From positions 129,513 to 193,512 of the forward strand of contig FN648136.1 in NCBI GenBank assembly GCA_000310025.1: a DNA stretch of 64,000 nt, in the 5' to 3' direction. Source of the stretch: Ectocarpus siliculosus. Taxonomy: Eukaryota > Sar > Phaeophyceae > Ectocarpales > Ectocarpaceae. Shown here piece after piece: positions 38,935-44,900 of the stretch. The notes under the pieces are model-generated. The model worked only from the letters and a program-made list of their open reading frames with translations, searched no databases and was not told the DNA's origin. The translations under genes were made by a program, and so were the position numbers. How positions within the stretch are numbered: the first letter of the stretch is position 1; the number at the start of each line of letters is the position of its first letter.

Positions 38935-41900
38935 CTAAAAGGCGTGCAGGACAAAAGGTAAGCGGCTGTGAGTAGGTTGTGTCGCGTGTTGCTCGCTCAC
39001 GTCATGCGCCGCCTCAAGAATGGCCACATCCTCCGGCAGCAGCGACCAGCCCAAGCACCCCACTATCTCGTCCGCATGTGCCTTTGTCTTCACTCCAGGC
39101 AGCGGAACGACACCCTTCGCTCTGGTCCCACAAAAAAAATCAACAGACGGGGTGCGCGAATAACATCGCGTGAGCAAATGTAAGTGCGTGTATGCAAACA
39201 AGAACGGGAGGAGCACACTGTTCCATGAGGTGACGCGCGCGCGGGGGCGGCAGGGGTAGGTAGCGATATTCGTGAGTTGGAATATTTCGGCTCGACCAAA
39301 CGTGAATTGAAGAGTTTGTATGGTGCGAACATCACAAGAACTCACGACATGACAGGATAGCAGCAAGCCTCGCGGGGCACAAGTCTCCCTTGGGCCGAAA
39401 TCCCCTAGGGATACCACGTGTAGAAATCCAGGAGGAAAGAAACACGGCCGAAGCAAACACTTCCCAGCAGCAGGACAAAATGCATTTCGCCGGGCACTGC
39501 CCCCCTCTCTCTCTCTCGAGTGTGCCCCACCCACCTGACGTAGTTAATAGCGACTTGTGTTGTGCTGATCTTCTTGAGCTGCGGGGGCGGTGCCTGCTCC
39601 TCTCCGTCCTCTAGCGCCTCGAAGGCTCTCCTCTGCTCCTCCTTCGCCTCCTCCGCCAACCGTCCTTCTACTCGCTTCGCCACCTTGCTCACGAAGAGAG
39701 AGAGAGCGAGAAAAAGAAACAAACGAGAAAGAAACAAACGGGAAAGTAACACAGGGTGAGCATAATTTAGGCAAAAAAACATGGTAATTTCTCAAGCAAA
39801 AGGGCAGATGGCGGAGACAAGCGGTACTTACTTCCTCCAGTGCTTCCGTCGAGGCTGCAGCAGCAGCATAGCGAAAGCAACATCATTCCCGCCTGTTTCA
39901 ACCTTCGACTGCGGAGCAATAACTCACCGCGGCCAAAGCCGTGTGGATGGGAGTCACAGGAAACAGGTCCTTAAAAAGATACTTGGGATCCCCCATCTTT
40001 CCACCAGTCGGGTTGGACGCCGTATAAACGCCGGTTGCCAACCCCTTCGCCAGCGGGGTGTGCCCGAGAGGCACGACACCTGGCCAAGAGAAAGCAGCAA
40101 ACGGGGCGGAAGAGGAGATCAACGGCAGAGCTTATGGGGGTTCTCAAGCGCCTGAGCGAGGCGGTTAACATCAGGGAGAGTCAGAATGGGCCAAGAACGC
40201 GACGTCAAAAGCACACCGGAATGTGCGACTCGAGTCTTGTTTGCTTGGGTCGTTTCGCTTGCCTGTGCCCCTAACCTACAATTCTGCGTGTGACTGGTGA
40301 CGAACGAACCCGGCACGGAGCGTACCAACAGAGCGTTCGTAGTTTTGACAACAGCAGGCTTAGCTCGGCAATCATCGAAGCATGAGCGCTTCCTCACGCG
40401 GCGGGGCAGCTCTTGGGTTAACGTTAAAAGAGGAGCAAGATCACTCACCCAGCCTTTTGCACTCGGCGAGCGTTCCGTCTGTCTCAGCGTCTCGATTAAC
40501 CAGAGAGTACTCGAACTGGTTGGAGGCAAGGGTGATGCCGTGCTTGCCCAGCTTCTCGGAGAATTCGCGCATCTACTCGTCACGACAACACCAGTGCCCC
40601 CCCCCCCCCCCCCCAAAACCCAAGGGGAAACAATGCCCAAAAAAAAACCCAAAAACGGTTAAGAAAAAAAGCCGAAAAGCCAAAAAACCAAGGCAAAGTC
40701 TAAGTTCCTTCCTGGGCCCAAAAGCCTTCATGATTCACCACCAACGGAAAAGTCCAATGAAACCCCAAACCTGCCACCCAAAATAGGCAAAACCTGGACT
40801 CCTGGCAAAAAAATGGCCAAAAAAAATTTTTCGCTTTCCAAAGGCGTTTNNNNNNNNNNNNNNNNNNNNNNNNNNNNNNNNNNNNNNNNNNNNNNNNNNN
40901 NNNNNNNNNNNNNNNNNNNNNNNNNNNNNNNNNNNNNNNNNNNNNNNNNTGGGTTTTTTTTTGCTGGGGTTGTTTGGCTTGCCTTGGCCCCTAACCTAAA
41001 ATTTTGGGGGGGGAGGGGGGGGAAAGAACCCGGCCGGGGGGGTACCAAAAGGGGGTTTGTAGTTTTGAAAACAGCGGGTTTAGTTTGGCAATTTTGGAAG
41101 CATGGGGGTTTCCCCCCGGGGGGGGGGGGTTTTTGGGTTAACTTTAAAAGGGGGGCAAGATCCTTCCCCCCCCCTTTTCCCTTTGGGGGGGGTTCCTTTT
41201 TTTTTAGGGTTTTGTTTAACCAGGGGGTACTTAAACTGGTTGGGGGCAAGGGGGATCCCGGGTTTCCCCCGTTTTTGGGGAAATTGGGGCATTTTTTTGT
41301 CAGGAAAACCCCAGGGCCCCCCCCCCCCCCCCACAGAACCGAGGGTGAACGAATGCACAAGAACAAGCGCAAGAACGGTTAGGATAACAGTCGGACATGC
41401 GAGACAGCGATGGCAAGGTCTAGGTTCCTTCGTGGGCCGAGAGGCGTTCATGATTCACGACCAACGGAAAGGTCGAGTGAGACCCAAGACGTGCAGCCCA
41501 AAATAGGCAAAGCCTGACATCTTGGCAAAGAAATGGCCAAGAAGATTTTTCGGCTTTCGAAAGGCGTTTCTTACCGTACGTGTTATTACTAGTTCCTGAA
41601 AGCACTTGTAGAGCAAAAGTGCACACGTCGGAGAAACACGTGTAGTGTAAATCGAAGGACGGGAATACCACCCGGGCGAGGTAGTTTCTTTGCCGTGCCG
41701 GGAGGGAGCGAGCTTGCTCCCTTGCCTTCACATCCTACGGTGCCAAGATTCCTACGTCCTACGTACGGCACGACAGTCGGTCGAGCAGGTCCAGGCGAGC
41801 CGGCTGACAGGACTATGGGTGACAAACACACTGACCGTTGATGGGTACAGGTCAAACCTGCCCCATGATGTTGTTGTGGCGATGCGAGGCATGCCAACGT

Positions 41901-44900
41901 GATCTTTGCCCCCCATGTTTACTCCTGAATGCCCGCAAGCCATACGTAAAAATCTCGCTACTAAAGCTGTGTACAAGAGCAAAGGTTCGACTGACCTGCT
42001 GGGCATTGAAGTTGGACACTCCCACCGAGCGGCACAGGCCTCGATCGCAAGCCCTGGACAGCCCTTCAGCCAGAGCATCCATTCCTCCAAAGTACGGGAA
42101 CGGAAAATGTACCTGAGATAGATACCATGCCACCACAGCGGATAGTGCCGTGTGAATCATCATCATTATGATCATTATTATGATCATCATGATAGTCGGA
42201 ATCGGAGGCACCAGAACTTGGCCAAGCAGCACAGGTACTCCATCCACACCAGTGATGCGTTCTTGCGCTGCATCGCACGACAAGGATGTTCCACGGCAGG
42301 GCAAAACTTCGTAGCACATCACCACACCGCTATGCCGTGCCATGGAAAAAGTGTGGCGGATTCGCTTACGGTTCGCGAGCGAGGACGCACGGCAGCAAAC
42401 AAGACACTTGCTCCCAGTGAACACAAGCGCGTGCCGTGGCGTGGGCAAAGAGCCGACCAATGATCTCGTCAACGCCTTGGAAATATTGTCGGACAGCAAC
42501 ACACCATTCATTGTCAGAACATGGGGGCTTGACACGAACAGACTCCCAAAACACACACCGAAATGGATCAGCACATGAGAGGCATGACACGAACAGCGTC
42601 CCAAAATACACACACCGAATGGGATTCCACGGTAGCTGCGGTGGTAATTCCCAACGTCTCGCCACCACCCCGGGACACGCCCGTCAAAAGGGCGAGTCCA
42701 GCAAGCCGCTCGCGCAAGCAGCCCGTACCTGGTACAGATCTACGTATGCCCAGCCCCCCTTCTCCAGCGTGGCCGTCAAGGCCTTGGCGATCGCTCGTCG
42801 CCCCGCCCTCCACGGCCCGCCGATCAGAAACTTGGTCCAAAATATCGGCATGTATTTCGCCCCGATCAAGGGGCGGCCCTGTCGCGCGAGTGAGTGTTGT
42901 GTGCGTACTGAGCGACGAGGGGGAAGTAGGAATCGGTTTCGTCCCAGATTATTGCTGTAAGCGTAACGTAGGGTTAGCTCTTTGAGCCACAGCGTTCCTA
43001 TTTAGTGCGCGGTCAAATCCGAACGAAGCGCCAACGTGGTTCCGTGGGCGGCAACACAACCCCGACCCAGAGAACGGAGGGGCCGAGCGTTACGGTAGCT
43101 GCCCTCAGCATTTATGTATTAGTGTGAAATAGAGAGCCGACCTCATGAACTATATCTGTTCTTCCACATCTTGGAACGTATGCCACACATTCTGAAAAAC
43201 TCTATGCACCTCCGAGGGCTGGAGACCCCCAAGCCAGCGGAGAACACACGCGCTTGCACTATTTCAAGCCCGCATCGCTTCGAAGCCACTGTACCGCAAT
43301 GCTCTCCTGTCGCAGCGTCAGTTTCCATGCCTCGTCCGTGTAGATGAACATCTGCGTGCTACCTGACACGAAGGGTTACGCTACCTCCATTCATGCGAGC
43401 CAAACGCTTCCATCAATGCTCTCGGGAACGTTGCGCTTTTCTCGCACAGTCAGCAGCACTCAGCCCATAGCCATTACGAGCAACATGCAATCACCAAGAC
43501 TCCAGCAGCTACGCCGAAGTAAGAGCATTGGGACACTGTCTCACGTTTTCCTCCGCAAATCTCCCCAAAAGTTGCTCCGCGCTGAAACCTTCCGGAGACG
43601 ATTTGTACCCGTACACGTCCGACGTGTCGAAAAAGGTTATCCCGGCATCCATCAGGGTATTGTACGCCCCCTGTTTTTCAGTGCGGGTAAAATATAATAC
43701 AAGCAATGGGCGCCTTGGGATGATGACCACACAAAGTCATCGGGGGTATGATATCTATTTATGTCTTCTCGGTGACGTGGAGGCGCACGGACGATAGAGT
43801 GGGGAGTGCTAGGACAAAGAGGCGGAAGCCAACACAAGTCTAATACAATTGACATCATTCACAGGCCGTTGAAATCTAAAGGTAACAACTGGTTGAGGTT
43901 CAATGCCCCATGAGCGAACGAAAAACCGCCGTCCATACTATGGTACTGCAGTATCCAGCAACAACGATGCACCTGAAGGTCCGCCGGGTTGAACTCGCCC
44001 TCCTTCGGCTTGTACTTGGGATCGCTCACGAACCCTACTTTCTTGTCCCCCCAAGCCATGGTGCCGACGCCCATATAGTTGGGGATCTCCAGCTTTCCCT
44101 TCTTAAGCATGCTCCTGCGATATCATGGCAACGGTTGCGTTTGGGCTCGGTAATGTGCATAGGTACCGTAAGAGTCGGAGAGATGGCACCCCCGTGTTAG
44201 CGTTTTTGTACAGCGTATTTCTCCACAACCAGGGGGGTACCACTGCCGAAAAGGGGAGTTTTGGAAACATCTCGTCGAGGGCTTTCCGGAGAGGTATCGG
44301 TTGGTGTTCACACCCTCCTAGTTGTGGAGAAATACGCTATACAAAAACGCTAACACAGGGGTGCCATCTCTCCGACTCTTACGGTATGTCAAAGGTGATG
44401 TCAATGGTGGGTACACACCTCTCGCTTCAACACACCGTCGTATTCCGCGTTCTGCTTATTGGAACTCAGCGACAAGTTGAAGCTGAACATGTCGCAAAAC
44501 CAACTCCACTCTCTTGCATGTGCCGTCGTCCGCGCTGCAGTGAAGGATTCCGGCAACGCTGGGATGCAAGTATCGGCCGTCTCGCATGGCCGGGTGATGG
44601 AGTCAATTCCATCAGTATTCATAAAATTCTTCGAGACTGTGAAGCCACAGACAGCGTTTCAACAGGCGACCAATGTACAGACCAGCATGGACATGGCACG
44701 GAACCGTCCATTTTGTGCGTAATTCACTGCAAAAGTAACGAGAACGTACCGTGCGCTTGTGGGGGACGAACGCTAGAAATAGTGCGCACGCGTTTCAAAC
44801 CTGGTTCAAAACTGGTTCAAAACTGGTTCAACACTGGTTCATTGTCCCCAAGTTGTCGCAAAGGTTACTGGGTTCTTCTGTACCGTCACTCTACGACCCC

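Follow-up and report, generated by a model that had tools for sequence, protein, structure and literature searches.

In the window, that is, the whole 64-kb stretch of DNA that was analysed, the interval 40235–41569 is almost certainly an assembly artefact: one locus has been written down twice, as two contig ends, one corrupted after and the other before a poly-C tract, with a gap of negative size between them. The duplication has no biological content. First of all, the window contains a single run of N (40850–40949, 100 in length), and the best local alignment across it pairs 40235–40849 with 40955–41569 over 615 columns at a constant offset of 720, with 463 identical positions and no indel. 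Such an alignment of the two sides had been proposed in the preliminary description of this DNA, and its gap-free course and constant offset bear out the claim made there that one locus was assembled twice. The identity of the two copies in this local alignment is 75%; that is to say, about a quarter of the positions differ. On the left, the overlap runs through to the final base of the contig end; on the right, it starts 5 bases inside. When 40225–40849 was searched against its own genome, two matches were obtained, which are the two known copies, and no others. The excess amounts to 720 bases (620 of sequence and 100 N), give or take the true length of the C run, in line with the earlier estimate that the true sequence is about 0.7 kb shorter.

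The two copies are complementary in their arrangement. In the left contig end, segment A before the C run is clean (40235–40596), has an ordinary composition and holds an exon of an aldo-keto reductase (AKR); it is followed by a run of 18 C (40597–40614) and by a degraded copy of segment B (40616–40849), of the kind that forward reads give past a C run. The 100-N placeholder (40850–40949) then stands between contig ends that overlap, as the N run and the alignment together indicate. In the right contig, segment A comes as a degraded copy (40955–41316), of the kind that reverse reads give past the run, followed by a run of 16 C (41317–41332) and by segment B in its clean copy (41336–41569), which is intronic sequence of the AKR gene. 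The same order, clean A, poly-C and degraded B on one side and degraded A, poly-C and clean B on the other, had been read from the letters before, and the smear fractions and the neighbour test given below both agree with it.

The degraded halves are distinguished by their smearing. Before the C run, the fraction of bases equal to the preceding base is 0.623 in the right copy versus 0.230 in the clean left copy; after the run, it is 0.532 in the left copy versus 0.296 in the clean right copy. Among same-sized pieces of the window, excluding those that overlap about 40590–41330 or N, the two degraded values were reached by 0 of 1,251 and 0 of 1,257, respectively, and a trinucleotide entropy as low as that of degraded B was found in 7 of 1,257. 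In the neighbour test, each degraded flank was oriented in the direction of a read passing the C run, and for the null the contexts were re-dealt among mismatches of the same true base in 1,000 shuffles. All 55 mismatches in B and all 96 in A (151 of 151 in total) are identical to the clean base that immediately precedes or follows, the shuffled means being 38.6 and 58.9 and the maxima 47 and 70; in other words, the wrong call is a neighbouring true base. The preceding base is matched by 54 of the 55 mismatches in B; among the 96 in A, 79 equal the preceding base and 67 the following one. Matches at two or three steps are at or near chance, except at offset −2 in A (38 versus 26.2, highest shuffle 40). 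Since every mismatch obeys the neighbour rule, the differences fit superposed ladders after polymerase slippage and not the divergence of a true duplicate.

Two similar segments that adjoin and are 75% identical could be taken for a true tandem duplication whose copies have decayed by mutation, but the decay would then have to hit complementary halves, switching from one copy to the other exactly at the C run, and to turn each changed base into its neighbour with no indel in 615 columns. Moreover, the identical coincidence would be required at the 17 other 100-N gaps described below, and the differences do not lie over both copies regardless of the neighbouring base, as a decayed duplication would have them. 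A tandem origin is thus exceedingly improbable.

The mismatches left by read-phase smear also carry a bias towards certain bases. On the read strand, G is retained least (34 of 70 in B and 51 of 101 in A); A is retained in 69 of 74 and 76 of 86 positions, and C in 43 of 50 and 88 of 99. The bias towards A/C on the plus strand of the left copy and the bias towards G/T in the right copy are a single bias when taken in the read direction. The preliminary description had spoken of substitution to repeated A/C or G/T; the bias is indeed there, and its nature can now be put more exactly, namely that the adjacent base is copied, base by base, with a dye bias on the read strand. The neighbour rule together with the loss of G is the pattern expected of ladders superposed one base out of phase with unequal dye heights. 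A strong bias of substitution would also be in keeping with a cellular process (deamination or RIP-like) that hypermutated one of the copies, but the read-strand bias runs from G to A and from G to C, and its strand flips at the C run. The new base also depends on the adjacent base, and deamination yields only C to T or G to A, whereas other substitution classes are numerous here, for example G to C with 14 of 55 mismatches in B and 18 of 96 in A; the probability of such a process is vanishingly small.

The superposition of ladders was also put into a mixed-ladder model whose parameters are two phase weights and the dye heights (A and C high, T lower and G lowest). Its agreement with the degraded sequence rises from 0.764 to 0.914 in B and from 0.734 to 0.884 in A, and on held-out halves it reaches 0.897 and 0.853 (B) and 0.890 and 0.878 (A). 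In the negative control, in which calls were re-dealt among sites of the same true base (5 shuffles each), the values were 0.764–0.777 (B) and 0.734 (A). The model predicts 40 of 55 mismatches in B and 64 of 96 in A and misses the other 15 and 32, respectively; it is a sketch rather than a full account. In summary, the idea that the degraded halves arose as reads passed a long C run is upheld by the neighbour test, the mixed-ladder fit with its negative control, the constant offset and the 17 cases on another contig.

The duplication very probably came about as follows. Capillary (Sanger) reads would have entered one stretch of A, poly-C and B from either side. At the long C run, slippage of the polymerase by one base may occur, either in the sequencing reaction or earlier in the clone; homopolymer slippage is described as a recognized cause of stutter in traces of the Sanger type (PMC10643650). 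The later positions of the trace would then hold the true base mixed with its neighbour, and the base caller would write the stronger dye, so that forward reads would give clean A and corrupted B, and reverse reads clean B and corrupted A. With about a quarter of the positions differing, the two contig ends would have been too unlike for the assembler to merge; mate pairs would still have made them neighbours in the scaffold, and a gap whose size came out as negative or close to zero would have been entered as 100 N. The assembly is presumably a Sanger-era one of Ectocarpus. A type III polyketide synthase exon of this genome, detected with PF00195, agrees with PDB chain 4b0n_A at 90 of 93 aligned residues, and 4b0n is the enzyme of Ectocarpus siliculosus. 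Ectocarpus v1 is described as resting on Sanger data with 1,561 scaffolds (PMC7386250).

According to PMC2864568, false duplications that adjoin a gap in diploid assemblies classically arise in a different way, namely when the two haplotypes are assembled next to each other (heterotype false duplication). But a 25% mismatch that is confined to opposite halves and obeys the neighbour rule is not allelic variation, and the Ectocarpus genome, provided that this is the organism, is described as haploid (PMC7386250), which leaves this origin extremely unlikely. The copies differ by sequencing error and not as alleles, as is evident from the error signature rather than from reads.

The artefact touches a gene. 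The AKR exon lies at 40449–40572 on the minus strand, exactly where it had been placed before, and is intact, with an AG acceptor and a GT donor; its boundaries, its splice dinucleotides and the AKR alignment all speak for it. Peptide pieces of the surrounding frames, joined by eye, match AKRs whose structures are known, best of all 5dan (E 2.9e-15), and the residues of the exon fall within the AKR alignment. In Pfam, 43509–43736 matches Aldo_ket_red with 26.1 bits against a cut-off of 24, and 41852–42739 remains below that cut-off with 18.8 bits. Pfam gave no AKR match for the exon alone (40441–40572), the best being HTH_NDX with E 0.26, below the cut-off. At the offset of +720, a shadow of the exon is found at 41169–41292 on the minus strand, in which both splice dinucleotides are lost, reading AA and GG instead of AG and GT. 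The shadow frame (41080–41454) has no Pfam match, which proves nothing given that the intact exon is likewise without an AKR match. That is to say, the exon is present intact once, accompanied by a corrupted shadow. As for the concern that a false gene model could arise here, the shadow frame is open, and a predictor using open frames alone might take it up; but the risk is limited because both splice dinucleotides are missing, and a predictor that depends on splice sites would probably skip the shadow exon.

The artefact is systematic in the assembly. Runs of at least 18 C after a non-C base number 1,998 and 1,874 on the two strands of the genome (3,872 by one pattern). The survey covered 100 listed runs, all on contig C1 between 45 kb and 3.63 Mb, and two extra runs (L016 and L022), which together make up 83 loci, and the recurrence rate thus rests on one contig. 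Of these, 25 contain a 100-N gap, 39 only gaps of other lengths (some of them truncated where the fetched piece ends), and 19 no gap at all. An overlap was taken as qualifying when it had at least 50 columns, ended no more than 10 bases from both gap edges and scored above ten shuffles plus 10. A qualifying false duplication was found at 17 of the 25 loci with a 100-N gap (17 of the 83 poly-C/G loci), namely L005, L007, L015, L028, L029, L032, L039, L040, L051, L053, L056, L058, L069, L077, L079, L080 and L088, with overlaps of up to 655 columns. In the two-way test, 1,391 of their 1,420 mismatches are explained by a neighbour, versus a shuffled mean of 972. At L056, the run close by is a G16 instead of the C18 on the list. 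The other 8 of the 25 have no qualifying overlap: at L016, L066, L068 and L084 the two contig ends join within the run itself, and at L034, L050, L055 and L062 none was found at the 100-N gap. Twenty random C1 loci served as a control; 5 of them are wholly N, none has a run of at least 18, and the only 100-N gap (L099) shows no overlap, so that the control for gaps away from runs consists of a single gap.

A second false duplication (L109) lies at the start of the window. It begins before the window (contig C44, 128,779–129,717), and its right copy occupies positions 1–205, with a degraded flank and C runs at 109–125 and 135–155. Within L109, 480–897 aligns with 1001–1418 over 418 columns, 310 of them identical, without indel and with a 100-N gap between; 100 of its 108 mismatches are explained by a neighbour (shuffled mean 77.8, highest 91). 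The adjoining frame, one frame chosen by reading, belongs to a glucose-6-phosphate dehydrogenase exon and corresponds to the C-terminal domain of that enzyme (PF02781, E 8.7e-18). The case that had been described singly is therefore a real artefact but not a singular one, as it recurs at 17 C1 loci and at the window start. If C1 is representative, 17 per 100 listed runs times 3,872 gives about 660 cases, with a Poisson range of about 380 to 1,050. There is an even chance that the assembly, which is widely trusted on account of its Sanger basis, carries several hundred such false duplications, with about 0.2 Mb doubled and corrupted, and that some exon-like shadow frames entered gene models which were later lifted to newer assemblies.

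The side on which a flank is degraded can be predicted if the reads enter from the contig body. In the window and the 17 C1 loci, 24 flanks were testable, and 23 of them show the degradation where it was predicted (L056, with no run inside the overlap, was left out of the count); the exception is one flank of L029, 53 columns long, which is clean in both copies. The errors set in at the run and affect what a read reaches after it. In the as-predicted flanks pooled, 1,439 of 1,479 mismatches are identical to the clean base next to them and 40 are unexplained, and G is retained least both past poly-C (336 of 514) and past poly-G (543 of 918). A contig end often consists of one low-quality read, and generic low-quality tails left untrimmed, to which the poly-C would be incidental, might be held responsible. 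But the smear begins at the run, on the side just given, the gap-distal side of the run is clean in 17 of 17 testable gap loci, and L099, the 100-N gap away from runs, has no overlap, although this last point is thinly tested with a single gap. Generic tails are therefore a very improbable cause.

Corrupted ends occur without an overlap as well. Among the 39 loci with gaps of other lengths, 17 have at least 35 bases between the run and the gap, and this stretch is smeared in 14 of the 17 and not in the other 3, versus 0 of 17 on the far side of the run and 1 of 298 background pieces. The contrast between the two sides of the run indicates that many contigs end at or just past a long C or G run and that their last stretch is unreliable; these contig ends look corrupted. 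The smeared run-to-gap stretches, e.g., L033, L064 and L083, have no partner copy in the fetched piece. The other 22 of the 39 runs are no more than 34 bases from the gap, and at three of them (L008, L011 and L063) the far side passes the smear threshold. Among the loci without a gap, 1 of 19 passes it: at L078, with a G run at 901, the flank on one side reaches 0.48, which may reflect concealed smear within a contig or be a chance value.

For users of the assembly, the artefact is a useful warning about a reference genome. The bases that separate a long C or G run from a gap are to be distrusted, the true size of a 100-N gap beside such a run is often negative, and shadow exons or apparent tandem repeats at run-side gaps are false. 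The neighbour-copying rule allows errors of this class to be tested for cheaply and without reads, and could be applied to other Sanger-era assemblies. In one Ectocarpus paper, the Sanger v1 contigs are treated as unlikely to hold misassemblies (PMC7386250); as presented there, this view concerns the structure of contigs and is not contradicted here, where local error at contig ends is observed. V2 is described as comprising 176.99 Mb placed and 17.97 Mb unplaced with 11,588 gaps, and 18,278 of its 18,412 gene models as having been lifted to V5 (PMC11541908); therefore, shadow exons in old models could still matter.

As for the literature, none of the matches listed deals with this artefact in Ectocarpus or with false duplication at C or G runs, which is no proof of absence. 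There is a close likeness to the negative gaps of the PBJelly paper (PMC3504050), which lie between adjacent contigs expected to overlap from mate-pair distance but showing no overlap in sequence; at the window locus and the C1 loci, the contig ends overlap across the gap. That paper also links low-quality flanks to the formation of gaps. Validated examples given there were trimmed by 1–43 bases, whereas the overlaps here reach 655 columns, and the cause here is identified as phase smear after a C or G run. The homotype false duplications, as the Vertebrate Genomes Project terms them (PMC9516828), are alike in being under-collapsed sequence that results from read errors and not from haplotypes, and the window too holds two adjacent assembled copies of one locus with a gap between. 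In that account they are defined by k-mers and read depth, whereas here they are recognized by the error signature, and the error is mechanistically specific, with copies corrupted in complementary halves. The false segmental duplications from haplotype mis-assembly (PMC2864568) share the adjacent duplicate contigs with a gap and the duplicated exons, but their cause as given there is heterozygosity, and here it is slippage smear. Finally, the homopolymer stutter of Sanger traces (PMC10643650) shows additional peaks that precede or follow the true one by a single position, arises from polymerase slippage and is worse at homopolymers, in the same manner as proposed here; as treated in that source it is a problem of reading a single trace, whereas here it has been fixed in a genome assembly. 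The known kinds are thus negative gaps and homotype false duplications, and what is added here is the specific cause and the frequency in this assembly.
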